In this document: piece after piece, positions 1,282 to 18,266 of the stretch
How positions within the stretch are numbered: position 1 is the first letter of the stretch
Layout: every line of letters starts with the position of its first letter
Assembly: GCA_004124475.1 (NCBI GenBank)
Contig: SCKK01000002.1
Coordinates: forward strand, 1 to 64,000
Direction: 5' to 3'
From: Fidelibacterota bacterium
Lineage (GTDB): Bacteria; Fidelibacterota; Marinisomatia; Marinisomatales; SCKK01
DNA: 64,000 bases
The notes under the pieces: model-generated
What the model was told of the DNA's origin: nothing
Database searches by the model: none
Seen by the model: the letters and a program-made list of their open reading frames with translations, nothing else
Position numbers and translations under genes: made by a program

Positions 1282-1344
1282 CTAATTCCTCCTATATTTA
1301 CTTTTTAATTATTATTAATTTCTGGAATTTACCCCGTATTAAAA

Positions 1345-2544: not shown

Positions 2545-2568
2545 TTTAATAACCCAAGTTTCGCACAT

Positions 2569-2930
2569 ATTAATTGTTTTATATTTCGGAAGATGTCCAT
2601 AAATAAAGTCATTAAATATCGTAATAAAAAAGATGAATTTTTTATTGCCGTTATTCTCTGTACTTTTCTTAGCGTAAGAAAAGTACCAAAAGAAACAGTC
2701 GCTGGAGAAAAATTATATCCGTCTGCATCATTGTTTTGGGATTGAATTAAACTCATCCCTTTCCGCCAGCTGGCGGATCGGTCTTCAAACAGTAATTCAT
2801 TCTCATCCAAAACAATGGTTTGACGATAATGATAATCCCGATGCATCGGGACTAATGCGACAAAGAAATCCTATAGTGTATCTAATTAATCAGACATGCG
2901 AAACTTGAGTAAATCTTAAGAAGCAAACAA
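2569..2930. other. Intergenic region with three perfect palindromes, no convincing gene
   Basis: This 362-bp gap holds short inverted repeats: an 11-bp stem with a 3-nt loop at 2661-2685 (arms TACTTTTCTTA/TAAGAAAAGTA), a 16-bp palindrome TCCGCCAGCTGGCGGA at 2762-2777 and TCCCGATGCATCGGGA at 2836-2851. The last two belong to palindrome types that recur elsewhere in the window. A 101-codon minus-strand reading frame crosses the region, but it is built from these palindromes and has no recognisable domain, so I do not call it a gene. The 2661 hairpin could act as a bidirectional terminator. Confidence 0.6.
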
Positions 2931-4916
2931 TCACTGTTTTAGCTTAGACTGTAACCTCTTCCTTACCCATGCCTCCAATCCTCCAACCAAGATCAGTTCC
3001 TGAGCCGTCAAACCTACCGGGTCAAAGGAGTAGTTCTTTTCATCAGTTTGAATAACAGTGTTTACAAAATCAATTTTTACCCGGATGCCAGTCCGCACTG
3101 TAAGCTTCCTATCTCCAAAGGTTGTTTTCATATCTTCAGTTAATTCGGTACACTTCAAAACGAGAAAGCTATTATTGATGGCGTTCCGGGCGTAGGTTTG
3201 GCTGAACGAACCGGCAACTACTAATTGTATTCCCCGATATTTCAGCGCTGTGGCAGCCTGTTCACGGGAACTTCCCGAGCCAAAGTTGAATCCTCCAACC
3301 AAAATATCTCCCTCCTTAACCAAATCTACAAAGTCAGGATCATAATTTTCCATCACTACTTTTGCTTGCTGATCCGGAGAAAAATCATCTATGTAAGTAT
3401 ATTTACTGGGGAAAATACCGTCTGTGTTCAGGTTGTCCTGATAACAAAAAACCAGTTCACCTTTAATGGTTTTTGGAAAGTCCGCCAGCAATTCTATGGT
3501 TTGCTCAGTCGTGGGTGTAGTTTCGTTCTCCGAAATGGTCACAGTGGGTTTAATGGAGTCATATTCTTGTGGCGCTGCGATTATTCCCCGGATGGCAGAA
3601 GCCGCTACTACTGCTGGTGAAGCAAGATAGGCTTGAGCATCCCTGGATCCCATTCGCCCCTTGAAATTTCGATTTGTTGAAGAGATGGCTACCTCACCTG
3701 GTTCTAGCGTCCCCACACCAAGACCAATACATGGACCACATCCGGGCGGAAGTGGAATGGCACCTGCATCTAATAGTGCCTGCCAGTCACCCCTCTTCTC
3801 GCTTTCGGCTTGTACCTCACTTGATGCTGCGGCAATGTACAACTCAACTCTCTGTGCCACCTTTTTCCCTCGCAATACTGCAGCGGCTACGGCAAGATCT
3901 TCAACTCTGCTATTCACACACGAAACAAGATAAGCCTTGTTGATTCGTATTTTCCGATTCTCGATTTCAGAGGCACTCATCATCTCTTTCACATGGTCTG
4001 GCCCTGAGACATTGGGGCGAACAGTAGAAAGATCCAGCATCAGTTCCTTAGCATAGAATGCATCGGGATCTGGGGTAAGAATATTCTGTTCCAGTTCATC
4101 AATTCTCCTGTGGTTCAGGCGAGGATGAATCCCATGCCCGTCTTCGTCTGAAGGTACGCCTGCCAGACTCCGTTCAGCCACAAAGTCAGCCCTTTGGTGT
4201 AACCACTCGATAGTAACTTCATCCGTAGGGAAAAGCCCTACAAGTACACCCCATTCTGTGGTCATATTGGCAATGGTGAGACGATCATTAAGGGACAGGT
4301 GCCTCACCCCATCTCCCACGAATTCCACTGCATGATTCAGAACCTCGTCCTTGTTGAAAACACCACAGAGCGTGACTATGACATCTTTCCCTGAAACACC
4401 GGTGGGAAGCTGTCCTTTAAATTCCACTTTTGCGACGGGCGGGACTTGCCACCAGGTTTGTCCCGTAGCCCAAATGGCTGCCGCATCCGTTCGGACCACG
4501 GGCGTCCCGAGGCACCCGAGTCCACCATACATATTGGAATGGCTGTCTGAAGCAACTACTAAGGTCCCCGGCCAAGCGTACCCTTCCTCACATATGATCT
4601 GGTGACCAATTCCTCGTCCAGCTGGATAAAATACCACACCCATCTCTTTAGCAAAATCTTCAATACTCCGGTATTTTAATAAGTTCTTTTCAGATTTATC
4701 CTGAATGTTATGATCGAGAGTAAATACTGGCTGACGTGGATTAGCCATCTTCGTAGCCCCAATGGTATGAAACTTCATCATCACCGCACCCGTATTGTCA
4801 TGAGTCATAACGTGAGCAGGACGGATAAAAACATAATCACCGCTGTGAACCTCGTGACCATCTTCAAGTCCAACAGCGAAGTTTTGAACAATTTTTTCAA
4901 TTATATTTTGTGGCAT
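2931..4916 (-). CDS. Homoaconitase, single-chain Lys4 type (aconitase superfamily)
   Basis: This 661-residue protein is an aconitase-superfamily [4Fe-4S] hydro-lyase with catalytic and swivel domains in one chain. Cluster cysteines are visible at C333 ('YLVSCVNSR'), C393 and C396 ('GCGPCIGLG'). The C-terminal swivel domain contains 'GFNFGSGSSREQAA'. From memory it aligns along its whole length with fungal mitochondrial homoaconitase Lys4, starting at the first residues ('EKIVQNFAVGL', 'HSGDYVFIRPAH') and including 'YPAGRGIGHQI', 'ASDSHSNMYGGLG' and 'IWATGQTWWQVPPVAKVE'. Known bacterial and archaeal homoaconitases are usually two-subunit LysT/LysU enzymes. It probably converts homocitrate to homoisocitrate for lysine synthesis, together with the dehydrogenase at 163-1281. 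Plain aconitate hydratase activity is the main alternative. Confidence 0.85.
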   Translation of the reverse strand: MPQNIIEKIVQNFAVGLEDGHEVHSGDYVFIRPAHVMTHDNTGAVMMKFHTIGATKMANPRQPVFTLDHNIQDKSEKNLLKYRSIEDFAKEMGVVFYPAGRGIGHQIICEEGYAWPGTLVVASDSHSNMYGGLGCLGTPVVRTDAAAIWATGQTWWQVPPVAKVEFKGQLPTGVSGKDVIVTLCGVFNKDEVLNHAVEFVGDGVRHLSLNDRLTIANMTTEWGVLVGLFPTDEVTIEWLHQRADFVAERSLAGVPSDEDGHGIHPRLNHRRIDELEQNILTPDPDAFYAKELMLDLSTVRPNVSGPDHVKEMMSASEIENRKIRINKAYLVSCVNSRVEDLAVAAAVLRGKKVAQRVELYIAAASSEVQAESEKRGDWQALLDAGAIPLPPGCGPCIGLGVGTLEPGEVAISSTNRNFKGRMGSRDAQAYLASPAVVAASAIRGIIAAPQEYDSIKPTVTISENETTPTTEQTIELLADFPKTIKGELVFCYQDNLNTDGIFPSKYTYIDDFSPDQQAKVVMENYDPDFVDLVKEGDILVGGFNFGSGSSREQAATALKYRGIQLVVAGSFSQTYARNAINNSFLVLKCTELTEDMKTTFGDRKLTVRTGIRVKIDFVNTVIQTDEKNYSFDPVGLTAQELILVGGLEAWVRKRLQSKLKQ

Positions 4917-4980
4917 ACCTTACTAACTATGTGATCTTTCAGGGTCTTTTGATCCTGAGATTGTTATCATTCTCGATACC

Positions 4981-5038
4981 ACAAGGTCAGCCTGTCTGCC
5001 CTGCCTTGCCGGCAGGCGACCAGGCAGGGAGACCTTGT
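4981..5038. repeat. Composite inverted repeat between homoaconitase and Yip1 genes
   Basis: Outer arms ACAAGGTC (4981-4988) and GACCTTGT (5031-5038) enclose a GC-rich 'ctgcctgcc/ggcaggcg' palindrome. The inner motif is one of the dispersed GC-rich palindromes of this genome, and the outer caaggtc/gaccttg motif also appears in the hairpin at 21985-22006. It lies in the 235-bp gap upstream of the homoaconitase and could act as a terminator for the upstream minus-strand gene. Confidence 0.55.
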
Positions 5039-5151
5039 TAGATCCTTTATGGAAGAAGTGGTTCCTGACAAGAATATGGGTGATCCCTATAAAGCCGCGA
5101 GTACCTTTTATGCTTTGTTAACTTTTGTTTTGACGGCAACATCAAAAAGCG

Positions 5152-5685
5152 TTATACTGGTTTTGCCGCACTACCCAAAATAGAAAACAATAACACAAAG
5201 ATTAACGCTTGAATGATCCAGCCGATCACGCAAACTCCTACCGCGCGTAAAGTGCTCTCATAATCAAGAGCTTGTCTCACCGCGATTACCATTGCCATTA
5301 GCATCCAAATTCCAGCCACAAGAAAAACTACCCCTCCCAGCCCTGGGATGATACCTAATACTCGAATCAAGCCGGGAGAGCTCGAAAAGCCGATAGTGCG
5401 AAGCAATTCACCGTAATCTGCTTTGGTCTGCGGCTCTGGCAGTAATTTCGTGCCAATATAGTAAGTTAGATAGGCCCAGATATACCAGCCGATAAGGGCA
5501 GCGATCGTCGCTGTCAAAATCCCACCAAGCCCTCCTGTAGCAATGCTGCCTATTCCAGCGGCGATACTGGAGAGAACCACCACTCCCATGGCTTGGCGCA
5601 TGGACCCGGTGTCGGCCTCAACCTCTTCATACAGATTAACATCTAACTTAGCTGCCCGCAGCATACGATCCTGAAAATTAGTCAT
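5152..5685 (-). CDS. Yip1-like integral membrane protein
   Basis: A 177-residue membrane protein with about four or five hydrophobic segments. A charged N-terminal stretch is followed by a Gly/Ala-rich segment around residues 33-50, then 'TATIAALIGWYIWAYLTYYIGTKLL', 'GLGGVVFLVAGIWMLMAMVIAV' and a C-terminal hydrophobic pair. The arrangement, with a conserved Gly-Trp-containing central segment, fits the bacterial YIP1 (PF04893) family, whose bacterial function is undefined. A strong AGGAGG ribosome site precedes the ATG. The gene stands alone between the homoaconitase and the accessory island. Family assignment is by pattern, not by search. Confidence 0.65.
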   Translation of the reverse strand: MTNFQDRMLRAAKLDVNLYEEVEADTGSMRQAMGVVVLSSIAAGIGSIATGGLGGILTATIAALIGWYIWAYLTYYIGTKLLPEPQTKADYGELLRTIGFSSSPGLIRVLGIIPGLGGVVFLVAGIWMLMAMVIAVRQALDYESTLRAVGVCVIGWIIQALIFVLLFSILGSAAKPV

Positions 5686-5893: not shown

Positions 5894-6973
5894 TCATCCT
5901 TTTTCTTTTTCAAAAAATCCTTGTTCTTTTAGTCTTTCCACTTGGGGTTTAATCATGTTATTCTCTATTGCCCATTTTCTTAATATTTCTATTCTTTCTA
6001 GAACTTTCTTTTTAGTCTTTTCGTTATAAAGTTTCAGGCTCTTTTTTTCTTGTTTTTCCCACCCAGTAAATCCTTCAGGATGGTGCTCAATACTCATCTT
6101 ATCAAAACTAAGAATCTGTTCCTCTTTCTGGTCAACAGTCATATCAGGGATTTCTTGAATGTGTTTATAAAGATCCTGTGTAAACTGATCATTATCCGCA
6201 ATTTTCTTAATTGCTTCCGTGTAGTCTTTTGGCAAAAAATTTCTAATACTCTCAATTTCGAATTTTTCAAGTACAGGAAATGGGTTGTCTATTCCACACT
6301 TTTTACTCCAGTCATATTCAAGCACTCCAATTGGATATTTTAGAAGGTGTAGAGTTACAATAATAATAACTATTTCTTCGTATGTTTTAAGCCATTTAAT
6401 TAGTACTTTTTCCTCAAAAGTTTGAAAATTTGATTTAAGAACACCTAATTGATTTGAGTACTTATAACCTTTTGTGTGAACATAGTTATGCAAAAAACTT
6501 AATTTATTAAAACGTCCACGAAGATTAATTTCTTTATTAAAGGTTGCAATATTGCTATTTGAATTTAATATCTTCCAAATTTTATCAGTACGAGGAGTAT
6601 TTGCATCCCATGAATCTTTCGATTTGAGCCAACTTTGCACCTCATTATGGCCTTCATCATTTATGTTGTAATAGACTGATAGCAAACCTAACTCAAGACC
6701 ACTACGAAGAGACATAAAAGCTTGTTTATAAAGACCAAAAATAGCAAGATTGAATGATATTTGTAGTTCATCCCACGATTCCGTATAAGGGAAGAAGTGA
6801 CCAGACCAAAAGTTCTCTGTCGTTTGTGGAATTATTTTCCCAATACTATGATAAACCCAACTAAATTCCTGAATTCTTTTTTTAATACCTGGATTTTTTT
6901 GCAAGAAAGCTTCAGTTTTTCCCAAAACTTCTATACTTTTTTCTGGGTTATATATAAGGGGGAAAATATTCAT
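5894..6973 (-). CDS. Hypothetical protein, AT-rich orphan gene
   Basis: A soluble, largely alpha-helical 359-residue protein that I do not recognise. The segment 'QAFMSLRSGLELGLLSVYY' and the later 'FLHNYVHT' resemble helical patterns seen in DUF5677/HEPN-like proteins, but no catalytic motif is secure, so function stays open. The C-terminal ~70 residues are highly charged and probably coiled coil. The gene is visibly AT-richer than its flanks, with lysine/asparagine/isoleucine-biased codons, and an attC-like palindrome lies directly after its stop codon. These signs suggest a horizontally acquired cassette. It opens the accessory island on the minus strand. Confidence 0.7.
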   Translation of the reverse strand: MNIFPLIYNPEKSIEVLGKTEAFLQKNPGIKKRIQEFSWVYHSIGKIIPQTTENFWSGHFFPYTESWDELQISFNLAIFGLYKQAFMSLRSGLELGLLSVYYNINDEGHNEVQSWLKSKDSWDANTPRTDKIWKILNSNSNIATFNKEINLRGRFNKLSFLHNYVHTKGYKYSNQLGVLKSNFQTFEEKVLIKWLKTYEEIVIIIVTLHLLKYPIGVLEYDWSKKCGIDNPFPVLEKFEIESIRNFLPKDYTEAIKKIADNDQFTQDLYKHIQEIPDMTVDQKEEQILSFDKMSIEHHPEGFTGWEKQEKKSLKLYNEKTKKKVLERIEILRKWAIENNMIKPQVERLKEQGFFEKEKG

Positions 6974-7073
6974 TCGAGAAGGATTTTTTTAAATATTTTT
7001 GAGTCGTAAATTTCATGTAACTCGTTCTTATCCGAAATAGGTTCGTATATACCTCACTATGGCCGAATCATTC

Positions 7074-7304
7074 CTAAGACTTGTCTACTCCTCTCTTACG
7101 CATGTTCAAACTCTCAAGCTGACTTTTAATTCTACCAATGCTCTGTTTACTAACGCGGGTATATATTTCCGTTGTTTTACTACTCTTATGCCCCATCCCT
7201 AAAATTCGGGACTGAATATACCGGATGTCAGTCCCACTTTCTATTAAATGTGTCGCAAGACTCTGTGAACCAATACCCCTTTCCGTATTATTGCTATCTG
7301 CCAC
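7074..7304 (-). pseudogene. Tyrosine recombinase (phage-integrase family) C-terminal remnant
   Basis: Only the last ~70 residues of a tyrosine recombinase remain. 'SLATHLIESGTDIRYIQ', then 'GHKSSKTTEIYTRVS' with the nucleophile-tyrosine context, then 'IGRIKSQLESLNM' match the usual family tail. The normal 'ELLGHKSSKTTEIY' is disturbed here by extra residues ('RILGMGHKSS'), and the HxxR box and the whole upstream domain are missing. It is therefore a decayed fragment, probably left from the element that brought in the neighbouring accessory genes. The tail is unlike integron IntI ('RTTMIYTHVL' type), so it does not prove an integron platform. Confidence 0.7.
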
Positions 7305-7373
7305 GCTTTTGTGAGAATATTCTCGACGGACTTATTGAAACTGAAGAAACCACTTATGTTTTGTTTTCGGCTG

Positions 7374-7610
7374 TCATCCAATGGAACTGATTTCGTACAA
7401 CTCGGCAGTAAACTTTCCGGATGGCTTGACTTTTCCATTTAAGATATCCTCTACAATCCTCGCCGATGATAGGGGCATGGATTCTTGCCCACAGTTTGGA
7501 CATACATAAATGGTCAAGTCTGAAATAACAACAGGCTCGCCGTTGCGATGGAAGATCTTTTCTTCTTTTCTTTCCTCCATGAGGGATGGACAGCCATTAG
7601 GACACTGCAT
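7374..7610 (-). CDS. YgiT-type zinc finger antitoxin (MqsA N-terminal-like)
   Basis: A 78-residue protein beginning 'MQCPNGCPSLMEERKEE', with a second zinc knuckle 'VCPNCGQESM' and the typical 'YEISSIG'-like C-terminus. The CxxxC...CxxC pair and 'GEPVVISDLTIYVCPNCG' are characteristic of YgiT-type zinc finger proteins that serve as antitoxins. The start at 7610 is chosen because an AGGAGG ribosome site sits 7-8 nt upstream and is formed by the last two Arg codons (AGG AGG) of the preceding toxin. An upstream ATG at 7655 is less likely. It forms a two-gene unit with the DUF4258 protein, toxin first, and probably binds it and autoregulates the pair. Confidence 0.75.
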   Translation of the reverse strand: MQCPNGCPSLMEERKEEKIFHRNGEPVVISDLTIYVCPNCGQESMPLSSARIVEDILNGKVKPSGKFTAELYEISSIG

Positions 7611-7615
7611 GTCAG

Positions 7616-7813
7616 TTACCTCCTGTTTGCTGTGATAATGAATCCTGGTTTGCAATCTTTTACCACAAACAGAATATTGGCTTTAGAAATCGTGTACTTA
7701 GTGAATCTACCTCGGGAACGTTCATCTTTCTCTTTCTTGCTAACTGTACCTGTTAGAATGGTGTCGAGAACTTGATCGATTGATATACCATTCTCCCACA
7801 TTCGCTGAATCAA
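7616..7813 (-). CDS. DUF4258-family putative toxin of a toxin-antitoxin pair
   Basis: A small basic 65-residue protein with 'IQRMWENGISIDQVLDTILTG', then 'KYTISKANILFVVKDCKPGFIITANRR'. This matches the compact DUF4258/RelE-like fold found next to YgiT zinc-finger antitoxins. The start is uncertain: the first usable codon is TTG at 7813. The frame stays open upstream and would add 'ITFGPH', which resembles the usual DUF4258 N-terminus, but offers no ATG. The native start may therefore be lost or non-canonical, and activity is doubtful. Its last codons overlap the ribosome site of the antitoxin, so the two genes are translationally coupled. Confidence 0.6.
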   Translation of the reverse strand: MIQRMWENGISIDQVLDTILTGTVSKKEKDERSRGRFTKYTISKANILFVVKDCKPGFIITANRR

Positions 7814-8000
7814 ATGTGGACCAAAAGTAATACGCCCGGACCTAATGTCATCACGAATTGTTTATATCGACACAAATCATGTACTCACAATGGACGTTAG
7901 CATACTTGGTGCAAATCCCAAACCAAAGAATTTTTTTGGTTAAAAGATGTCATCTTTATTCATCTCCTGTGTTCACTTAATCCAACTTAGCTCTTTGCCA

Positions 8001-11000
8001 TCAGGCAGATTCGTGAAATTTGGCTTCTTCCCCATGCCACACCGAAAACGGCACCACCTTTTCAAAATAGGAATCTCCGCCGTGGACATAATCACCATCC
8101 TGCTCTACGAATCCGTGGTCAGCGGAGATAACCACGGTGGACTGTGGAGGAAAAGCACGCAATACGGGACCCATGAGAGCATCCATCCTGGTCTTCACGA
8201 CTTCCAACATTGACCGAAATGGCTCTTTCCGCTCGTGAAGTAATGTATCCACGATGGTCGTATTCAACACGGTCAATTGACCCCCAGTAGACAGATGTCC
8301 GATTACCTTTGCTCGATTGGCAGGATCTTCCGATACGGTTTCCAAATGCCATTCCAAAGCTCCCGTGACATCTGCTAACTTCTGAATCAGCAGAGGGCGA
8401 TTCACCTCCGTTGTCGTGGGACTCGCCACTTCCATTGCTCCCAAATACACTATTCCATGTTTTGTCAAATTTTTCTCAAACCATGATCTCAGACCCTCCC
8501 ACACATCCCAACGCATGGCATCTACAATGAGCAGCACTACGGGGGATTTGCCAATCTGTTGCTGCAACTTCTTGGGGAATGTTTCAATGGAAAAATAGGG
8601 TACAGGAAGCTCCTTTCGTCCCACCCTTTCCTTAGAGAATACAAACTGTTTCTGAAGCTGGAAACCTCTATCAGAGAGAAGGTCAAGGCGGTTTGTGTCC
8701 GAGATGCTCACAACAGAACCCATTCGCTTCACTTCCTCAAGCAGGTGAGTCAATTGCCATCCACCGGACAAGTAATACTTCATAAGATTCTCGGCTGCTT
8801 CACCATTGGTTATGAGATCAATTGCCGTAAGAAAACGCTCAAGCAATGTAAGATGGGACCACCGTTCCACTTTGGGATGCGACCGAAGCCTATTAAGAAA
8901 TGGTGTCGATTCAGACGTCAAAGGTTCGGTGGGGGCAATTCTCAGGATAAGCTGCTTGGCTGCTTCAAGCGAAAGCGGTTCCAGAAAGCGTTCATTGAGG
9001 ACAAAATCCTGCAATTCATCTAACGACATTTCCTGAGGACCAATCAATTGCATCAACCGAGAGGTCATCTGCGCCCGAATAAGATAAATAGCCATCCGAT
9101 CAGCGTCGTCCCTATTGCTTAGCTCTTCCCGCACGGATGCCACCACCGAAAAGTCATGGGACTGAATACGGTATCGATTCTGCACCCAATCCAGCCACTC
9201 TCTTTTGCCATGCTGTCCTGCCCAAGCCAAAAGCCAAAACGCTTCAAAGAATCGGAATCCTTTCTCCCGGATAATCTCTTCCGCTCTTCGGTAGAATCGC
9301 CTGTCAAATTCCGGCAATTCCTCATCTCCCAAAATGTGGATGTACGTGTCCTCTCCGATCGATTCTCCTTCCATCAACCATTCGTCAAAAAGTGTCCGGA
9401 CCTCCTTCAGTGTCATCTGCCTGCCTGCGATCCTCTGAGTCAACATTTTGACCTGCCGCTGGAGAATCAAAACCTTGCCGCGAATGGCAGAGTTAATCGC
9501 AGAGATCAGTTCCTCTGTCACCAATGGTGTGAGACGGGAAAAATGCTTTTCCACCTGCTCCACAGGAATGTTAAGAAGCTTGGTCAATCGGTCGGCAGTT
9601 TTTGTTTGTCCAACACGGTTGAGGTTGACAAGGTACTCTTCAATAGCCCAACGAAAAGCGGTTTGCAACTGACGCAAAACGCTCTGTACTCCTTCCATAG
9701 CCATGTCTCGAATTCTTTCCGCTTGAGATTCAGGCAGTTCCTGGCCTGGAATAAAACCGCACTCACAAATGGGAAGTGTGGCAAGTTGTTGCTTGAGTGG
9801 GTGACGACAGGGTTCCTCCAAACGGAGGATACGTTCTTGCACCGCTATCCAATCGGGTGTTGCCACCACCGACTCCAGAGAATGGAACTGCTTCAGCAAC
9901 CGAACCGCAGGTTCTGATTCTACCGTTGTCGAAGCATGGAAAACGTCCCTGGAATAATAGGTGGCGTGCGCTTTAGAATACAGCCCAATATGATCGGTTC
10001 TGAATTCGTAAAACTGTTGGGTAAAATCGCTGACATTCCCTTTGGGCAGAAAATCACCATTCTCCAAGTTCCGGTACAGTTGCTGAAATGACTGCTGTAC
10101 TTCCGGCGTTGTATTTGAAATAACTTTTGTCAAAGATGGATGCTGCAAATAGACGTAAATCTGATTCAGTTCCGAAAACCGGGTTTCAAAAAGTGAGATC
10201 AACTCCAGTAAACCCTGCACTTCGGTTGGAAGTCGGCAAAGTCGCTCAAGACCCATTTCATGGGCGATTTTTTCCAACCCCTGCTGGGCAGAATAAGAAA
10301 CTCGGATCGATTGGCAGAACTGTTCCGCCCCTGTCAGATCCACATCGGAAGCGTGGATAATGGATTGATATGCCGGATAGGCTTCGTAACGAGATGCCAG
10401 AACCTCCCGCTTGTGGAGCAGCGCTGATACGGTTTCCCGAAAATGCTTCATCCGGCGCCAGATCTGCTCTTGCGTCGAGACGGAAAAATGCTCCGGAATA
10501 CCGTCAAAATCACTCAATGTCAAAAAGGGCAGGAGCGCCTCCTGGATTTCCTCCGAAATCAACCGACCCTCGCCAACTGCATCAACGCTCCCGTCGGTAA
10601 GCTGCGTGATCGCCCGGAATGGCGTCACATTGCCGGACTGAAACGCTGTAAGCCTCCCGGATACTATGAGAGCCCCCAGAAGAAGCTGAAATTGATACCT
10701 CGACACACCCCAATTACTCTTGCGCATCTGCCAGTAGAGAGAGTAGAGGTCCATCGGTTTTTCACCCATACAGCTCCCAATGACGTCAGCTCCAAAACTG
10801 TTGTCCTTGAACGCCACCGACAGCACATATTCAGTTTGAGTGGATTCAACAATGGCGAGTGGAGACAGATAAGCGCCGATGAGTGTATCAAGATGCTGTG
10901 CCCGGGCGTCATCCCTGGATATTCTGCCAACGCGTATAAACTGGGCAAACAATTTCTCCACGGCAAAGGGTTGAATCAAATCACCGGGCATGATTTCACT

Positions 11001-13301
11001 GTGACGCGGGTAGAGCCGTTGCAGAATCGGTGAAAAGAATTGTTTCAGCAGCGCCTTGAAATCGGGATACAACATGGAAAATCGAAAGGGTCGCCACCCT
11101 GAATAATCGGCAATGCGCCCACCGTAGTATGCGTTCTCCACCACGGTTACCAGCTCATTCTCATGCTCTTCTATCCACTCTTTCAGAATGTCACGCATCT
11201 GCCGCTCCTGAGGACTGGGATTCTGTCCGAGATGATTAAAGGTCTCAAGGTAAGCATAGAACTGATGAATAAATCTGCTCTCATCCTCTCTGAAAGGCCT
11301 CGGAAGCCACCCCAAGACTGCCCCGGCAAAACGCCCCTCCATCGATTCTCCAAAGAATCCTTTTTCCGAAGGACCCTGTGGGGAAAAGCCGAAAGGTGGC
11401 TGATCCGGAAATCCCTCTTCAGGGATTCCACCAATGAACAGAACAAAATCGGTCTCGGATATCTTCACTTGCTGGATGATAGTCTCCAGTTCAACCGAGC
11501 CTACAGGCAAAAGGGATTTGAAATACACCCAACCCTCCCGATTCGTATTTTGCCATTGGATCGTGTATTTTTTACGCTGTCCTCCTGCAAGGAATGAAAA
11601 AGGAATCATGGATGAACGTAAGTAGGGGAAGAGTCTCAAGAATTCTTCATGAATCTGAGTCGGTCGCTTAAGGACTTCCTGAACACGGTTCCGCACCATC
11701 TGGTGAATAGTTAGTTCCAGACTTATGTGATAAACGTTTTCCCCGGTATCGGTCACACTCCGGGTTACAAAAGAACCTTCCTTAACCAATTTTCCGAGGA
11801 TCACTTCTTCCAGATACCGGTAGTTCACACTTTCTTCCAGATCCGAAACCGGTTCATCGACCATTTGCGCCAGTTTCTGGACAGTCGGACGTTTCTCAAT
11901 AGGTGAGATTTCAATGAGTATGAGGATTTTGATTGCCTTGTAAGCGATCTGTTGATCTTGCGTCGATTCAAATATGGTTGGGATTTCACGATCGAGGGTT
12001 TTAAAGACGACTTCCGAATATGCCGATAGTTCAGGATGTTCTTTGATTCGCTCTTGAAAATGATCGAAGATGGTATCGGGAGTCATCAGTTGTGTTACTG
12101 GCAGCGATAACATTCCCTCCCATTTCCGATTCGGGTCACCGGTCAACTGATGATAGATGAAGTCAACCACGCCCCGGTGCTGGGAAAAAAGGGGCGTCAA
12201 GCCCTCCATAATAGTGACGGTATCCGGGTGCACAGGATAAATTTCAATAAACGGTTTGGAGTCAATGGCAATCTTCGGGAATGCACCCCGAAACTGATCG
12301 TAAACTTTTTTAATAGCCTTCTCTGCTCCGGGCTTTTTCCGGATCAATCGCTTCGAAATCAACTGCTTCACATGATGGGAAGAGAGAGTAAAGCGAAATG
12401 GAAAGCGGTCTTTGATCCTGTGCACGAGATCATCTTCCAGGTAGCCGGTTTGTTCAATGTTTTCCTGCAGGGTTGCCACCAGATAGAAGGGGAGCTCTTT
12501 GGTCATTTCCCCCATGAATTGGAGAAAGCGGAGATCTTCGGCAAAGGCGGCAGCATCGGTTTTGGACTTTAGGAATTCAGACAACTCGTCCACGGCAAAG
12601 AAAACGCCGGTGAAATCCTCTGCTTCCAAAACGGAGGAGAGTGTATCCATGGACTGCCGTCGGTCAAATTGAGCCTTCAACGGTATTCCATGGGATTGGA
12701 CAAAAGTATGAACCATCTTCGCCGCTTCATTCGCATTTGTTTTGCATAAGTCTTCCCAACTCTCAGACGTACGATTGACAGAATTCAAAAATTCACCGTG
12801 TTGGGGCAAGATATAGCGATTGAAGTGATTGACCAGCAAAGCTCCCCTGTGAAGAAGAACGGGTTTGCCTATCCGGTCTGAAAGAGCTTTTTCCGTTTCC
12901 TCCAGAACAATGGTTTCCAGGGCTTCTCCTGATGCAAAATTGTGAAGCGCTATTTTAACAACAAGTCGTTTTTGACCCCTAAGTCCGGAGAACTCTTGAA
13001 GGAGAGGATGAGAGATATAATCCCAGCACCGATCAGATTCTAACAACAGTGAAAGAACAGCCAGAAAGTGAGATTTCCCCGAACCATAATTCCCCTTTAC
13101 AAAAGCGCCAACGCCTTTTTCATCGGAGACGTGAGTGAACAGCTGCCTGATGGCATCCTCAATCTCATCCGTCAGAACAAAGGAAGATAGGAGCTCCCGG
13201 CTGCGATCCGGATCTTTGCTGTCTGCCGCCGACAGTTGAATAACCGTCTCAACCGGGGGGACGGTGATGAGATCAGCTATTTTTTGTGTGGAATTCTTCA
13301 T
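8001..13301 (-). CDS. BrxC/PglY-like (DUF6079-type) P-loop ATPase fused to a C-terminal PglZ phosphatase domain
   Basis: A 1766-residue protein. The N-terminal region has 'IADLITVPPVETVIQLSAAD', a Walker A 'GNYGSGKS' at 70-77 and a Walker B 'GVFFAVDEL' at 232-240, as in the large ATPases of BREX/Pgl phage-defence systems. A long helical middle (about 400-1580) has no recognised motif. The last ~180 residues are a PglZ-type alkaline-phosphatase-superfamily domain, with metal-ligand signatures 'IVDAMRWD' near 1594, 'SPTTTEVNRP' near 1627 and 'SADHGF' near 1727. In classical BREX these activities are separate proteins acting with a methyltransferase (PglX). No methyltransferase, BrxA/B or BrxL is visible here. 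It is flanked on the same strand by toxin-antitoxin genes and a TPR gene. Defence function is inferred from the two domains and the setting. Confidence 0.8.
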   Translation of the reverse strand: MKNSTQKIADLITVPPVETVIQLSAADSKDPDRSRELLSSFVLTDEIEDAIRQLFTHVSDEKGVGAFVKGNYGSGKSHFLAVLSLLLESDRCWDYISHPLLQEFSGLRGQKRLVVKIALHNFASGEALETIVLEETEKALSDRIGKPVLLHRGALLVNHFNRYILPQHGEFLNSVNRTSESWEDLCKTNANEAAKMVHTFVQSHGIPLKAQFDRRQSMDTLSSVLEAEDFTGVFFAVDELSEFLKSKTDAAAFAEDLRFLQFMGEMTKELPFYLVATLQENIEQTGYLEDDLVHRIKDRFPFRFTLSSHHVKQLISKRLIRKKPGAEKAIKKVYDQFRGAFPKIAIDSKPFIEIYPVHPDTVTIMEGLTPLFSQHRGVVDFIYHQLTGDPNRKWEGMLSLPVTQLMTPDTIFDHFQERIKEHPELSAYSEVVFKTLDREIPTIFESTQDQQIAYKAIKILILIEISPIEKRPTVQKLAQMVDEPVSDLEESVNYRYLEEVILGKLVKEGSFVTRSVTDTGENVYHISLELTIHQMVRNRVQEVLKRPTQIHEEFLRLFPYLRSSMIPFSFLAGGQRKKYTIQWQNTNREGWVYFKSLLPVGSVELETIIQQVKISETDFVLFIGGIPEEGFPDQPPFGFSPQGPSEKGFFGESMEGRFAGAVLGWLPRPFREDESRFIHQFYAYLETFNHLGQNPSPQERQMRDILKEWIEEHENELVTVVENAYYGGRIADYSGWRPFRFSMLYPDFKALLKQFFSPILQRLYPRHSEIMPGDLIQPFAVEKLFAQFIRVGRISRDDARAQHLDTLIGAYLSPLAIVESTQTEYVLSVAFKDNSFGADVIGSCMGEKPMDLYSLYWQMRKSNWGVSRYQFQLLLGALIVSGRLTAFQSGNVTPFRAITQLTDGSVDAVGEGRLISEEIQEALLPFLTLSDFDGIPEHFSVSTQEQIWRRMKHFRETVSALLHKREVLASRYEAYPAYQSIIHASDVDLTGAEQFCQSIRVSYSAQQGLEKIAHEMGLERLCRLPTEVQGLLELISLFETRFSELNQIYVYLQHPSLTKVISNTTPEVQQSFQQLYRNLENGDFLPKGNVSDFTQQFYEFRTDHIGLYSKAHATYYSRDVFHASTTVESEPAVRLLKQFHSLESVVATPDWIAVQERILRLEEPCRHPLKQQLATLPICECGFIPGQELPESQAERIRDMAMEGVQSVLRQLQTAFRWAIEEYLVNLNRVGQTKTADRLTKLLNIPVEQVEKHFSRLTPLVTEELISAINSAIRGKVLILQRQVKMLTQRIAGRQMTLKEVRTLFDEWLMEGESIGEDTYIHILGDEELPEFDRRFYRRAEEIIREKGFRFFEAFWLLAWAGQHGKREWLDWVQNRYRIQSHDFSVVASVREELSNRDDADRMAIYLIRAQMTSRLMQLIGPQEMSLDELQDFVLNERFLEPLSLEAAKQLILRIAPTEPLTSESTPFLNRLRSHPKVERWSHLTLLERFLTAIDLITNGEAAENLMKYYLSGGWQLTHLLEEVKRMGSVVSISDTNRLDLLSDRGFQLQKQFVFSKERVGRKELPVPYFSIETFPKKLQQQIGKSPVVLLIVDAMRWDVWEGLRSWFEKNLTKHGIVYLGAMEVASPTTTEVNRPLLIQKLADVTGALEWHLETVSEDPANRAKVIGHLSTGGQLTVLNTTIVDTLLHERKEPFRSMLEVVKTRMDALMGPVLRAFPPQSTVVISADHGFVEQDGDYVHGGDSYFEKVVPFSVWHGEEAKFHESA

Positions 13302-13418: not shown

Positions 13419-13796
13419 TTATCTCTTACGGATATATTTAACATTGGGTAGTTCCTTGAAATCTTCATCCTGAGTCCATACAGTAGCATTAAAGGTTCTT
13501 GCTGTTGCATAAATAACACTATCGGCCATAGGAATTCTTTGTTCATAACTAATCTTTGCTGCGATCATCGCTATATTTTCATCCAGAGATACCACTCTGT
13601 ATTTCTTCAATTGAGCGGTAATTCTAATTGCCATTTCTTCTCCACGTTCTGTTAGGATTTTCTTAAACACTTCGTAGATACAGATTGTGGGCACTATGAT
13701 TTCCTCACTCTTCTTTAGGATGGGTTCAGCAAACGTTTGGGCATTTTTACCTTTTGTAATAAACTCCAGCCAACCACTTTAATCAATGACAATCAA
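13419..13796 (-). pseudogene. VapC-like PIN-domain toxin interrupted by an in-frame TAA at codon 6
   Basis: Read from a TTG at 13796, which overlaps the antitoxin stop codon (TTGA), the frame gives 'MIVID*SGWLEF' and then 120 residues of a PIN domain with 'ADSVIYATARTFNATVWTQDEDF', the usual acidic-residue region near the C-terminus. The TAA at 13779-13781 sits where a Ser codon is expected (TCA to TAA needs one change). It follows the first catalytic Asp, so translation from the native start is stopped at once. A later start would lose the first acidic residue. This is a nonsense-inactivated VapC ribonuclease, or a sequencing error. Its partner antitoxin is intact. Confidence 0.75.
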
Positions 13797-14002
13797 ACTC
13801 TATCCTCTCTATCTCTTTCAATTGTGGTATCCATTCCTTCTAAAATACCGTATAATTCTTCAGTGGCCATTTCCGGTACCAGTTCGATTCTATCCTCATA
13901 AGGGATCATTATCAATCGCTTACCGGATTTTAGGTGTAAGGCTTCCCGTATCTTTTTTGGTATGACGACCTGGAATTTGGGTGAGATCGTAACGGTTTCC
14001 AT
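13793..14002 (-). CDS. AbrB/MazE-type antitoxin
   Basis: A 69-residue protein starting 'METVTISPKFQVVIPKKIREAL', the classical swapped-hairpin AbrB DNA-binding domain, with 'LKSGKRLIMIPYEDRIELVP', then an acidic tail that would neutralise the PIN toxin. Its stop overlaps the TTG start of the downstream vapC by 4 bp (TTGA), a typical coupled toxin-antitoxin layout. It lies between the TPR gene and the BrxC/PglY-PglZ gene on the same strand. It probably autorepresses the pair, and since the toxin is broken it may persist only as a regulator. Confidence 0.8.
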   Translation of the reverse strand: METVTISPKFQVVIPKKIREALHLKSGKRLIMIPYEDRIELVPEMATEELYGILEGMDTTIERDREDRV

Positions 14003-14176: not shown

Positions 14177-15172
14177 TCACCATTTTTCGACTTTTCTACG
14201 AATTCCCAAATAATTCCGCTTCTCCGGGTAACGTAGGAGCAGTTGATCAATGAATTGGAGAGCTTGTTCTTTGCCGTCTCCTAAGGATTCTGCGAACATT
14301 TTCCGAAATGCAGCAAAGAGGGAACTGCGGACAAAATGATCGTCAGGGTCTTTCAGCAAGCAATCCTTCAGTATTTCAGCTGCCTCCGCCAGACTGCCTC
14401 GCTTGGCATAGAGAAATCCCATCTGTTTCTTTTGAAACAAATCATCGGGACTGATGGCAAGAATCTTTCGATACGTCTGTTCGGCATTTTCCCACTCCTT
14501 GCTCTTCTTGTACTCCCGGGCTAACAGTCCGAGCAAGTGAACATTCTTCTCCTGAGATGGCAGCTTGAGAATCATCTCCAGCTGACGGATTTTTTCCGGG
14601 CCCGACTTACCCTCTGTTTTCAGAGCAATTAGACGTTCATAGGCAAAATCGCTTGACTTACCCTCCGATACTACTCGTTGATACAGTTCAATAGCTTTCT
14701 CTGTATTGCCGATTTTGTGGTAGTACTCCGCTGCAGTTGACACAAATTCCCCATCGTTGTGAAAGCGCTGAATCCATTCATTGAAATACGGCTCAAGATC
14801 GGTGAGAATTCCGAGAGATTCACCGACTTTCACCAGTTTCATCAGTAGTGGAATCTCCATCTTTTCTTCGATGAGCTCCTGTATTATTTCCAGAGAAGCC
14901 GCTGTATTGTTAGTGCGAAGCAGGATAGAGGAGTACAGCGAGCGAATAAATCTGGACCGGGGACTAATGCTCAAGGCTGTTTCAGAAAACTTCTTCGCTT
15001 TCTGGTGCCGGTTCATCAGAAAAGCCAGATGAGCAAAATTCGACCAGAAATATGCGGAATGGGGATTGGATTTCGCAAGTTCGCTAAACAGTTCCCATGA
15101 ATCGTTGTAATTTTTCTCCTTCTTCAGGAGTACTGCTTCGTCCAATTGCGATTGAAACTGTGATGTTACCAT
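14177..15172 (-). CDS. Tetratricopeptide-repeat protein of the accessory island
   Basis: A soluble 331-residue protein with no signal peptide, made of about seven TPR-like helix pairs. Examples are 'SWELFSELAKSNPHSAYFWSNFAHLAF', 'YYHKIGNTEKAIELYQRVVSEG', 'EYKKSKEWENAEQTYRKILAISP' and 'LYAKRGSLAEAAEILKDCLLKDP'. TPRs mediate protein-protein contacts; no enzymatic domain is visible. It is the first gene of a same-strand series TPR - AbrB - (vapC) - BrxC/PglY-PglZ, with 174 bp to the antitoxin. It may be a partner of the large ATPase-phosphatase protein, but this rests only on position. Confidence 0.75.
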   Translation of the reverse strand: MVTSQFQSQLDEAVLLKKEKNYNDSWELFSELAKSNPHSAYFWSNFAHLAFLMNRHQKAKKFSETALSISPRSRFIRSLYSSILLRTNNTAASLEIIQELIEEKMEIPLLMKLVKVGESLGILTDLEPYFNEWIQRFHNDGEFVSTAAEYYHKIGNTEKAIELYQRVVSEGKSSDFAYERLIALKTEGKSGPEKIRQLEMILKLPSQEKNVHLLGLLAREYKKSKEWENAEQTYRKILAISPDDLFQKKQMGFLYAKRGSLAEAAEILKDCLLKDPDDHFVRSSLFAAFRKMFAESLGDGKEQALQFIDQLLLRYPEKRNYLGIRRKVEKW

Positions 15173-15706
15173 CTTAGAGTGTTTCCGCCAGTTGGCGGAC
15201 TACGTTGACCCGGAGGGTCTCCTGTGGAGGAGCATGTGTTAGAGTGTTTATGTGCTAACGTCTCTACGCTGGACCAATAGACCAAGCTGGCAAGACCTGC
15301 GAATTCTTCCACCTTGTCAGAGATTGCATCCAATTACAGTAAGCCTATTCTGTGCATTAAGAATAATGATGATACCTTTACAAAGGATCCTTCGGAAATA
15401 CTTGCCGTACCTGATCCAAGAGTTTAAGATTCCGGTCAGGGACAAATTTTGGTTGAATTTTATCCCTTAATTCATTACATCGTTATAAGTTAGTTAAAAT
15501 TCCGTTAGAACCATATTGATTTAATATTATGTGGATGAATCATCATTCCCTGCCCGCTGGCCCGTCCGCCGGAGGGCGGGCAGGCAGGCGTATTCCAATC
15601 ACAATAGTTCAATAGATGGTTATTATTTTCAGTCTATAAAGGTAATATGAAGCAAAAGTTTCTACATATTGACACTGTTAACTGGCAAAAACATTAAGGA
15701 GGATTT
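15173..15706. other. 534-bp intergenic region with dispersed palindromes
   Basis: Contains the palindrome TCCGCCAGTTGGCGGA (15184-15199), an 'aaaggatccttcgg' element near 15376 that recurs near 19358 and 26440, and a GC-rich compound palindrome at 15551-15590 ('tgcccgctggcccg...ggagggcgggcagg'). Small reading frames here show no recognisable protein. The stretch near 15480-15515 carries GTTAG-like boxes ('cgttataagttag') that could be the worn end of a cassette junction, but I cannot define a site. A clear ribosome site (AAGGAGG) precedes the gene starting at 15707. Confidence 0.55.
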
Positions 15707-16729
15707 ATGGCTACTCCAGAAGAACGTAATGAAAGAATTGAAGAAGCAAAAAAACTGCTTGAGGAGTTAGCCGCGCAAAAAGCGACTTCTTTAGCAAGAA
15801 CAGAGGAGCTATCAAGAGATATTAATTTTTCTGATGCAGTTCCGTCCTTCGAAGAGATGCTAGATATAGCAAAACAACTAAACCAAAGAAGTATTGATAG
15901 GTTAGCCCATAATCAAATTATCCAAATTATTACCGCTTGTACCAATCTGAAAAATTTAATCAATAGGGTGAAGGAGTTTACATTAAACCAAAATACTCCA
16001 GCTGATGTATGCAAGTCAATAATTCAAGAGGTCAAAAATGCATATGACGCAATCATGGAGCCTCTAACTGTTCCTCTCGCTTTTACAGCTACACAGGCAA
16101 CAGATTATGCAAAAATTGAGCGGGAAGCAAAAGGTTATCTTGCAACAATGAAGAAAGAAGCCGAAGCCTTTAAAAAAATGTTGGAGTCATACAAGGTAGA
16201 CGCAGAAAAAGCCCTCCAGGCTGTTAAGGACCAAGCTGCAGAAGCTGGTGTAGCAACAAATGCCCAAATATTCTTAACCGACTCAGAAAACCATGCAAAA
16301 ACGGCAAAAAAATGGCTTACTGCAACTATATTGGCGTCAATTATTACCCTTGTCGTTACCGTTATTTTTGTTTTAATCAGTTTTATTTACAAGCCTGAAT
16401 CAACAGCAGTTGCAATTCAATATGTAGTAAGCAAGTTAATTCTTCTTTCGACGTTGTCCTTCGGTATTTTTTGGAGTGCCAGGAATTATAAATCAAGCAA
16501 ACACAACGAAACCCTTAATAAACATCGGGCAAATGCACTAATGACATTTAGAGCGTTTGTTGAGGGGAGTAGCGACCAACAAATAAAAGAAGCAATTCTT
16601 TTGCAAGCTGCTCAGGCAGCATTTGTTAACCGGCCAACAGGATTTGAGGTCCAAGAAAAAGAATCGCAAACCGTAAACCCAGTTGTCGAGATCTTAGGAA
16701 GATCTTTTGCTAAACCAGCTAGTTCTTAA
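15707..16729 (+). CDS. Hypothetical coiled-coil protein with two central membrane segments
   Basis: A 340-residue protein I cannot name. Residues 1-200 are charged and helical with heptad-like stretches ('ERNERIEEAKKLLEELAAQK', 'KKEAEAFKKMLESYKVDAEK'). Two membrane segments follow at about 204-227 and 238-256. The C-terminal ~80 residues form a cytoplasmic helical tail with 'LNKHRANALMTFRAFVEG' and 'ILLQAAQAAFVNRPTGFE', a tail type I believe recurs in uncharacterised cassette-borne proteins. A strong AAGGAGG site precedes the ATG. It is followed by an attC-like element and another small gene, which suggests an integron-type cassette. A helical sensor plus membrane anchor is compatible with defence or stress roles, but that is speculation. 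Confidence 0.75.
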   Translation: MATPEERNERIEEAKKLLEELAAQKATSLARTEELSRDINFSDAVPSFEEMLDIAKQLNQRSIDRLAHNQIIQIITACTNLKNLINRVKEFTLNQNTPADVCKSIIQEVKNAYDAIMEPLTVPLAFTATQATDYAKIEREAKGYLATMKKEAEAFKKMLESYKVDAEKALQAVKDQAAEAGVATNAQIFLTDSENHAKTAKKWLTATILASIITLVVTVIFVLISFIYKPESTAVAIQYVVSKLILLSTLSFGIFWSARNYKSSKHNETLNKHRANALMTFRAFVEGSSDQQIKEAILLQAAQAAFVNRPTGFEVQEKESQTVNPVVEILGRSFAKPASS

Positions 16730-16745
16730 ATAAAAATGAAAAGCC

Positions 16746-16867
16746 AGTTAACCAGGCACTACAGCCAACCGCAAGAAGAGCGGTCGATTTTCGTTACGAT
16801 TTTCCGTCCACAATGGTTTCCGTCAGCTGCACCACTTTCCTGGCAGCGGGTGAGTTTAACGTTAGGT
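16746..16867 (+). repeat. Possible attC site (weak) after the coiled-coil membrane gene
   Basis: Starts shortly after the preceding stop codon. The right end carries a perfect integron core GTTAGGT (16861-16867), and GTTTAAC before it can pair with GTTAAC at 16747-16752. Internal pairing is asymmetric. Length (~120 bp) and position between two small same-strand genes fit an attC, but the left core does not match RYYYAAC well. Confidence 0.3.
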
Positions 16868-16912
16868 TTTGTAATTATCTTAGCAAACCCCAATTAGAAA
16901 GGAGTGAATAAA

Positions 16913-17335
16913 ATGGCAACACAAACATTTACAATTGAACTTGATGGTTACTGGAGAGAACCAAATAAAGGCAGCATCCCTACAAAGTCCGGCGTCTATT
17001 GCGTCTACAGTTGTGTTCATAATGCTCATAAAAAAACTGTCTTGATAAAAAAACTAATTTATATTGGCGAATCTGAAGATGTTAATGATCGCATCTCAGA
17101 CCACGAAAAACTCCCTGATTGGAAAAAGCATTTAAAATCAGGGGAAGTGCTCTGTTATAGCTTTGGAGGAGTCGCAGCTACCAACCGAGTAAGATGTGAA
17201 GCTGCAATTATCTTTAAGCATAAGCCGCCAGAAAATACTGAGTATGTAAGCTCATTCCCATTTGATCAAATAACAATGAATTTGTCTGGGAAAACAGCTC
17301 TACTTTCAACGAGTTTTACTGTTAACAGAACATAA
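16913..17335 (+). CDS. GIY-YIG nuclease-like small protein
   Basis: A 140-residue protein with the GIY-YIG signature spread as 'SGVYCVYSC' and 'KKLIYIGESEDVNDRISDH', followed by a downstream 'VRCEAAIIFKHKPPEN' that supplies the family's conserved Glu and Asn. GIY-YIG domains cut DNA or act as repair nucleases. Here the domain stands almost alone, as in many mobile-gene-cassette proteins. The ATG at 16913 is chosen because AAAGGAG lies 8 nt upstream; a GTG at 16904 would overlap that site. An attC-like element begins 2 nt after the stop. Exact substrate unknown. Confidence 0.7.
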   Translation: MATQTFTIELDGYWREPNKGSIPTKSGVYCVYSCVHNAHKKTVLIKKLIYIGESEDVNDRISDHEKLPDWKKHLKSGEVLCYSFGGVAATNRVRCEAAIIFKHKPPENTEYVSSFPFDQITMNLSGKTALLSTSFTVNRT

Positions 17336-17336
17336 A

Positions 17337-17420
17337 ACCTAACAAAGCAAATTCACTCGGACTGCCTTTTCCGTTGCGCTCTAAGGCATCCGGTGATTTG
17401 CAGCATTAAATTAGTTGGCT
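17337..17420 (+). repeat. attC-like integron recombination site
   Basis: Begins 2 nt after the GIY-YIG stop codon with ACCTAAC (17337-17343, matching RYYYAAC) and ends near AGTTGGC (17413-17419). Between them, 17347-17366 and 17385-17401 pair into a long stem that leaves three unpaired bases (T, T, C), all on the left strand. Such extrahelical bases on one arm are a hallmark of folded attC sites. The right core is one base off GTTRRRY. Best candidate attC in the window. Confidence 0.5.
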
Positions 17421-17588
17421 ATGTTCTATGAAATGACTGATTAAACTCATAAATTTTATTCTCGACGGGAAAAAATATGAAATCAAGAAACACAAATTTA
17501 CCGACTTATATTTTTAGAATCATAAGTGTACAGAATTTAAAGAAAGTGGCATTAAATAAGGTCGTTTGTAGAACATAGCTAATTAGTT
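17411..17588. repeat. Inverted repeat pair of ~22 bp enclosing ~130 bp of AT-rich DNA
   Basis: The arm at 17411-17433 (ttagttggctatgttctatg...) is the near-inverse of 17565-17588 (tttgtagaacatagctaatt...), sharing the uninterrupted core TAGAACATAGC. The AT-rich interior holds no gene. It may be a small non-autonomous element or a second, inverted cassette-boundary sequence. Confidence 0.4.
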
Positions 17589-17690
17589 TTACCAAATTCA
17601 TTTCAATTTTTCTTCCACCTTCTAATCTTATGTTTTTTAAAAATCTCTGTAATCTTTGCCTGCCTTGCCTACCTTCTTTGTGGCGGGAAT

Positions 17691-18266
17691 GGCTTTGCCG
17701 GGCTACCTATCACGCGTAACGATGGTTCCCGACCTTAAGCTCGGTGTGGCAGTCATGTCTAACCAGGAATCTGTGGCCCATTTATCAATCATGAATCACA
17801 TTATAGATTACTACTTGGGGTATTCAGACGTGGACTGGTTTGACACCTACAAAGCATATGACCAGCAGAGGAAGGTGAGAATAGCAGCAGCAGAAGAAAA
17901 GATTTCTACACAACGGGAGACAGTTCATCGGGTCCCATCCTCCCGCTCTCAATGCATACACTGGTACTTACGCTGATGCCTAGTATGGCAACATCACCAT
18001 AGAGTAGAAAGATGACGGAAGCATGTTGTTGAAGTTCTCTCAAACGCCTTCCCTTGCAGGCGATATTTATCACTGGCAGCACGATACATTTATTGTGCAC
18101 TGGCCACGACCGGGAACTGCCGGCTGACGCATTTGTAACATTCGCTCTCAACCCAGATGGCAACATTGACCAGGTAAAAATAAAACCAGTATCGCCGGCT
18201 ACGGACTTTAGCTTCGATTTTCTAAATCTCCTGTTGAAATCTATTATGTTAAAAAAGAATAAGTAA
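17691..18266 (+). pseudogene. Serine hydrolase (beta-lactamase family) C-terminal remnant with DUF3471 domain
   Basis: The + strand encodes 'LPGYLSRVTMVPDLKLGVAV' and 'SNQESVAHLSIMNHIIDYYLG', the end of a class C beta-lactamase-like domain. After a frameshift come 'NAYTGTYADA*YGNITIE*KDDGSMLLKFSQTPSLAGDIYHWQ' and, after another shift, 'ADAFVTFALNPDGNIDQVKI', which together form a DUF3471 domain. At least two frameshifts and two stop codons are present, and the catalytic SxxK half is gone. It is a clearly decayed gene, truncated at its 5' end next to the inverted-repeat/attC region. Confidence 0.8.

Follow-up and report, generated by a model that had tools for sequence, protein, structure and literature searches.

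In BREX, BrxC and PglZ are normally separate proteins. How BREX stops phages is unsettled, and recent work places BrxC, BrxB and PglZ at its core, with PglZ a nuclease. What, then, is the function of a single chain which joins a BrxC-like ATPase to a PglZ domain, and what accompanies it? The gene for such a chain lies in the window, the whole stretch of 64,000 nucleotides analysed here. If the fusion serves defence, the restriction half of BREX is able to work with self left unmarked; otherwise the BREX core has been put to a non-immune use.

The fused protein and its domains

The fused BrxC–PglZ protein of 1766 aa is encoded by one frame with an ATG start and no internal stop (Table 1), just as the earlier note described it. 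The Walker motifs which that note had placed within the first 250 residues are indeed there, Walker A (GNYGSGKSHF) at residues 70–79 and Walker B (VFFAVDELSEFL, which includes D238/E239) at residues 233–244. Profile searches of the protein gave Pfam DUF6079 (E 4.6e-50) and PADLOC BrxC (E 5.4e-43), and comparison of the N-terminal part of the fusion with BrxC chains gave profile E-values of 1e-17 to 1e-18. The score with NCBIfam BREX_BrxC is 90.5 bits, under its curated cut-off of 400. When all 1766 aa are scanned with Pfam as a single sequence, the PglZ end scores weakly (E 0.0027, 18.1 bits against a cut-off of 25). Since such a scan would leave PglZ doubtful, the C-terminal domain was scanned alone and folded. 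Taken alone, its 202 residues pass the Pfam PglZ cut-off (25.7 bits, E 1.3e-5), and the same profile matches seven of nine homologous C-terminal domains.

Table 1. Position and basis of the fusion gene, its parts and the TPR gene (coordinates in the window)
Feature	Coordinates	Strand	Basis
BrxC–PglZ fusion gene	8001..13301	-	ORF; Pfam/PADLOC/NCBIfam; six full-length fused homologues
Predicted AAA+ (ORC/Cdc6-type) + wHTH, N-terminal, residues 1-530	11712..13301	-	BrxC structure match, profiles, motifs
Middle part, residues 531-1380: predicted alpha+beta/wHTH region, long helices	9162..11711	-	AF2 models, alignment
Predicted helical linker, residues 1381-1564	8610..9161	-	Per-domain identity, AF2 model
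PglZ domain, residues 1565-1766	8004..8609	-	PorX Z 15.9, Pfam PglZ, residue alignment
TPR-repeat protein, 331 aa, upstream of fusion	14177..15172	-	Pfam TPR; recurrence next to fusion

Two AlphaFold2 models were made from homologue alignments, one of residues 1000–1766 (mean pLDDT 80.5) and one of residues 1–1010 (81.7). Their pTM values, 0.39 and 0.49, make the arrangement of domains in them untrustworthy, and it is the individual domains that are usable. The N-terminal model matches the solved BrxC structures 9zll/9zdx with Z 22.0/21.6 over 461/458 residues, the next family being ORC/Cdc6 at Z 14.8. The C-terminal model matches PorX PglZ domains with Z 14.3–15.9 over 178–186 residues, the next family reaching at most 9.7, and in Foldseek it matches BREX PglZ (E 3.4e-6). 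By these models the first ~530 residues are predicted to carry a BrxC AAA+–wHTH fold and the last ~200 to be a PglZ domain. The C-terminal domain, identified beforehand as PglZ-type by its sequence, thus matched PglZ by profile and by predicted structure alike; a failure to do so had been named in the earlier note as what would refute its reading.

D1594, T1631, D1685, H1689, D1728, H1729 and H1740 are invariant in comparison with the genome's own PorX-like PglZ and with stand-alone PglZ; by this alignment, the PglZ metal site, including the Thr nucleophile and the His of the HGG motif, is intact. T1631 and H1740 align to T272/H500 of PorX and T538/H741 of Escherichia fergusonii PglZ, mutation of which abolishes or reduces activity (PMC12205998). 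In the middle part of the protein a Cys motif, C1165...C1179-x-C1181, occupies invariant columns of the homologue alignment. The linker is the least conserved part, with 25–36% identity among close homologues.

Recurrence of the fusion and its TPR neighbour

Six further full-length fused homologues, all MAG-based, are spread over three bacterial phyla (the MAG labels given here are as deposited, and the 'three phyla' are those of the genome-search grouping, namely the phyla of the window's genome, G000, and of G246 and G247). Identity to the window protein is 52% for L004 from a Marinimicrobia MAG, 53% for L005 from a MAG labelled Deltaproteobacteria, 49–50% for L006/L067 from a MAG labelled Deferribacteres and 42–43% for L065; L061 and L062 are more distant at about 24%. 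L063, L064 and L066 are partial homologues. The in-depth search covered the three phyla, and the contig scan by short exact peptides recovers close relatives only. Within the phylum of the window the full-length fusion is in 2 of 245 genomes, and in another phylum searched it is in 2 of 40. That a BrxC-like ATPase and PglZ are coupled in one chain, as the earlier note proposed, is borne out by the folds and by this recurrence.

The same note had suggested mapping gene neighbourhoods for a recurrent pair of TPR gene and fused gene lacking pglX. Such a pair does recur. A TPR gene encoding 320–357 aa lies just upstream of the fusion and on the same strand at five of the seven full-length fused loci (the window, L004, L065, L061 and L062), and in the window and L004 a toxin–antitoxin insert separates the two genes. 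For L061 and L062, where the TPR proteins are only ~19% identical, orthology is based on position and size. What weakens the partnership is that G246 and G247 do not have the two genes side by side; there the TPR orthologue (57–60%) is on another contig, and in G247 a different gene sits directly upstream of the fusion, the usual pair order being absent. A TPR gene is thus present in all seven genomes. Within the window's phylum the TPR orthologue is confined to the two genomes, of 245, that carry the fusion, a co-occurrence with a chance of 3e-5 if genomes are independent.

Comparison with BREX and other PglZ systems

In type I BREX the AAA+ domain of BrxC physically binds BrxB:PglZ, and DNA binding by BrxC is under ATP control (PMC13326643). 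Given this BrxC:BrxB:PglZ complex, a fusion of BrxC and PglZ is what the complex would allow. With the core of BREX types 1–6 the fusion shares the BrxC order of AAA+–wHTH–alpha/beta–helical arm and the metallo-phosphodiesterase core of PglZ; it differs in being one chain with a TPR partner. Its PglZ core follows directly on the BrxC arm, and the tail beyond the HGG motif is too short to hold the C-terminal beta-sandwich of type I PglZ; the N-terminal inactive Swi2/Snf2 domain of type I PglZ was not recognised in it.

Beside the fusion no methyltransferase, phosphorothioation genes, BrxA, BrxB, BrxL or helicase was recognised as a companion (one SNF2 near L061 and one RecQ near L004 do not recur). 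In the neighbourhoods examined, pglX, brxL, brxA and brxB were seen beside none of the fused genes. No modification enzyme was seen near the fusion in the window, L004, L065, L061 and L062 (phosphorothioation genes being checked by eye), and the ORFs adjacent to it in the window include no BrxA or BrxB by Pfam. Nor was HerA/FtsK recognised, either by eye in neighbouring ORFs or among those neighbours scanned with Pfam. Conservation of the neighbourhood stops at the TPR gene, and none of the fused loci was seen to lie in a defence island. The module is classed as BREX-related and not as a BREX system, since neither a modification enzyme nor BrxL was seen at its loci. The earlier claim that a BREX methyltransferase is missing holds for the window's locus and for its genome, and the homologues are not always accompanied by pglX or brxL just outside, which was the finding that would have spoken against a separate system.

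BREX-related capture (BRC), as set out in the main-text sections of PMC12839542, is alike in having DUF6079 and PglZ outside classical BREX; it differs in that these are separate proteins there, with a universal HerA/FtsK translocase, DUF4007 and a STAND NTPase, none of which was seen in the fusion neighbourhoods. The same sections of this BREX survey (January 2026) present iSTAND–PglZ fusions, DUF499 systems and the HerA/FtsK-linked BRC; a BrxC–PglZ fusion is not described in them, though its supplements may list one, and 'TPR' has no occurrence in the main text. In the other literature searched, which was largely open-access, no BrxC–PglZ fusion was found. PorX, a response regulator–PglZ protein, offers the closest solved fold (Z 15.9) and catalytic site for the C-terminal domain. 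It has a CheY receiver, whereas the fusion has a BrxC-type ATPase before PglZ, and the window's genome encodes a separate PorX-like gene (L016). The ATPase part has weak PADLOC matches (best E 4.4e-10) with SspC of Ssp phosphorothioation; BrxC models are far better (5.4e-43), and no SspB/SspD genes were seen at the locus.

Proposed role and the main alternatives

The reading preferred here, evenly poised between right and wrong in our judgement, is that of a two-gene, methylation-independent, BREX-related module in which a TPR protein is paired with a single-chain BrxC–PglZ motor–nuclease, probably for defence. From the domains we infer how it could work. The ORC/Cdc6-type AAA+–wHTH half would bind ATP, self-assemble and load onto DNA, with the long helical middle and its Cys motif serving as arm and spacer. 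This would bring the metal-dependent PglZ phosphodiesterase at the C-terminus to the DNA engaged by the motor, where it would either cut or nick that DNA, or cleave an oligonucleotide. The TPR protein may stand in for BrxB/PglX as an adaptor or sensor and control the timing of motor assembly. With no modification enzyme, self is unmarked, and so either stress or some protein or structure of a phage or plasmid would have to set the system off.

The likeliest role of such a module would be to defend against phages or plasmids, and the chances that it does so are roughly even. Homology, patchiness and dispensability speak for defence. Dispensability is seen in a sister species, G001, which is 97% identical over the neighbouring 7.3 kb. 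There, a 7.07-kb deletion has joined window positions 8151 and 15222 through ten shared bases and has removed the TPR gene, the PIN gene and the fusion except its last codons; with the TPR gene and the fusion gone, the module is dispensable. A more specific version is held more tentatively, as somewhat less probable than an even call: that this is a stand-alone, modification-independent immune system, a minimal BREX effector core, in which sensing of an invader cue by the TPR protein replaces methylation-based discrimination of self from non-self.

The main rival, which appears unlikely, is a native role outside defence, as a regulatory or DNA-maintenance ATPase–phosphodiesterase whose PorX-like PglZ cleaves cyclic or linear oligonucleotides while its AAA+ part controls physiology of the chromosome or of stress. 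Several observations which fit a native role also count against defence. GC3 of the fusion (0.52) and of the TPR gene (0.50) is host-like, unlike that of the AT-rich newcomers around them (0.24–0.30). Close fused homologues are 49–53% identical across phyla, much as topoisomerase I is (topA, 49–50%), and this is slow for an arms-race gene. The chromosomal site beside aconitase and isocitrate dehydrogenase (IDH), in the order TPR–fusion–aconitase–IDH, is common to the window and L004, which belong to different families. An IMG/VR search with the fused protein found nothing, and tblastn against plasmids and phages gave N-terminal DUF6079/BrxC matches only, none covering more than 41%. The PglZ domain also has its closest structural match in a response regulator, PorX, which suits a regulatory function. 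On the other hand, the very patchy distribution in both phyla counted above is unsuited to a core function, as is the clean recent deletion in G001, and the BrxC likeness of the N-terminal half extends over ~460 residues.

A good deal less probable is that the TPR/fusion pair is a relic, decaying or inactive, whose frame has been kept by chance. Consistent with decay are the lone deletion scar left in G001, the early in-frame stop of the PIN frame between the TPR gene and the fusion, and the recombinase and toxin–antitoxin debris around the module. A run of 1766 open codons, the cross-phylum identity just given and the retention of all catalytic residues speak against it. A module of this kind, with BrxC and PglZ in one natural chain beside one small partner, would let motor–nuclease coupling be studied in two components without methylation, and would offer a one-to-one BrxC–PglZ complex for structural work.

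BREX parts elsewhere in the genomes

The fused protein might instead be a satellite of BREX, cooperating with parts of that system found at other places in the genome. At the fused loci there was no METHYLTRANSFERASE; PglX above its curated cut-off was limited to G247 and G361, with a strong partial match in G109, and BrxL was limited to G247 and G109, being absent genome-wide from 10 of 12 genomes. In G247 and G109 the PglX-like and BrxL genes are on contigs other than that of the fusion, as a satellite would allow. Two findings make cooperation of this kind very improbable. G000, G246, G355, G309 and G313 keep the pair with neither BrxL nor PglX over the cut-off, and in G000 missed genes for either are unlikely because that genome is 95% complete; also, the BREX contig of G247 holds a separate DUF6079/BrxC ORF of its own. 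Independence from pglX and brxL, as proposed from the window's sequence, is thereby upheld in these five genomes.

Origin and unfused relatives

That an assembly or frameshift error welded neighbouring brxC and pglZ genes can be ruled out for practical purposes: Halorarius does have brxC then pglZ, adjacent in the same order with a 2-bp gap and so one stop loss away from a fusion, but the identical architecture stands in seven assemblies across three phyla. The Halorarius gene order is one from which the fusion could have come. In a tree of the AAA+ region the fused proteins group with the unfused L059 and L060, apart from BREX-1 and BREX-3 BrxC (support 89/89, which is moderate, with long branches). 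L059/L060 group within the set, and a single clade of the fused forms on this region is not rejected (p-AU 0.38).

L059 and L060 (from G303 and G302) are like the fusion in length up to residue ~1335 and in their place in the tree; they differ in being without a PglZ domain and in lying beside a nitrilase gene. These BrxC-like proteins of 1338–1344 aa end before PglZ, and their genes directly follow the nitrilase-type gene (6524-10558 and 10555-11373 at L059, with a 4-bp overlap, CN_hydrolase; 369-4385 and 4560-5351 at L060). A stand-alone PglZ of 721–729 aa is encoded on another contig in the same 2 of 82 genomes. Together, the BrxC-like protein and the stand-alone PglZ may correspond to the fusion in split form.

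Surroundings of the module

The AT-rich genes which flank the module are at 5894-6973 (-), 15707-16729 (+) and 16904-17335 (+); one encodes a GIY-YIG-like protein and two are without a convincing family match. Between the TPR gene and the fusion, at 13419-14002 (-), are an AbrB-like antitoxin and a PIN-toxin frame; the latter looks broken, as it meets an in-frame TAA after about six codons. Toxin–antitoxin genes were considered as part of the module and dropped, the slot being occupied by AbrB/PIN in the window and by MNT/HEPN in L004 (8815-9644), and being empty in L065. Downstream of the fusion, at 7374-7860 (-), there is an apparent toxin–antitoxin-like pair, made up of a Zn-finger MqsA-like protein of 93 aa and a short preceding frame. 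The G001 copy of this pair sits between two fusion 3′ ends (L002:1-1045). The scar on G001 contig C144 (L057:1-2330) has two fusion 3′ ends and two TPR upstream regions, with RelBE-like genes between. A stretch at 7090-7340 (-) resembles the C-terminal end of a tyrosine recombinase (DIRYIQSRILGMGHKSSKTTEIYTRVS) and is apparently a remnant.

By eye, flagellar genes were noticed near the L065 fusion (14866-18248; flgK, flgL, fliW) and near the unfused relative L059 (230-6083; fliA, flgA, fliW). A functional link to them was set aside, as they do not recur beyond these two loci. The intergenic DNA upstream of the TPR gene is AT-rich except for a GC-rich imperfect inverted repeat at 15550-15591 (CCTGCCTGCCCGCCCTCCGGCGGACGGGCCAGCGGGCAGG, minus strand), which has the look of a REP-type element.
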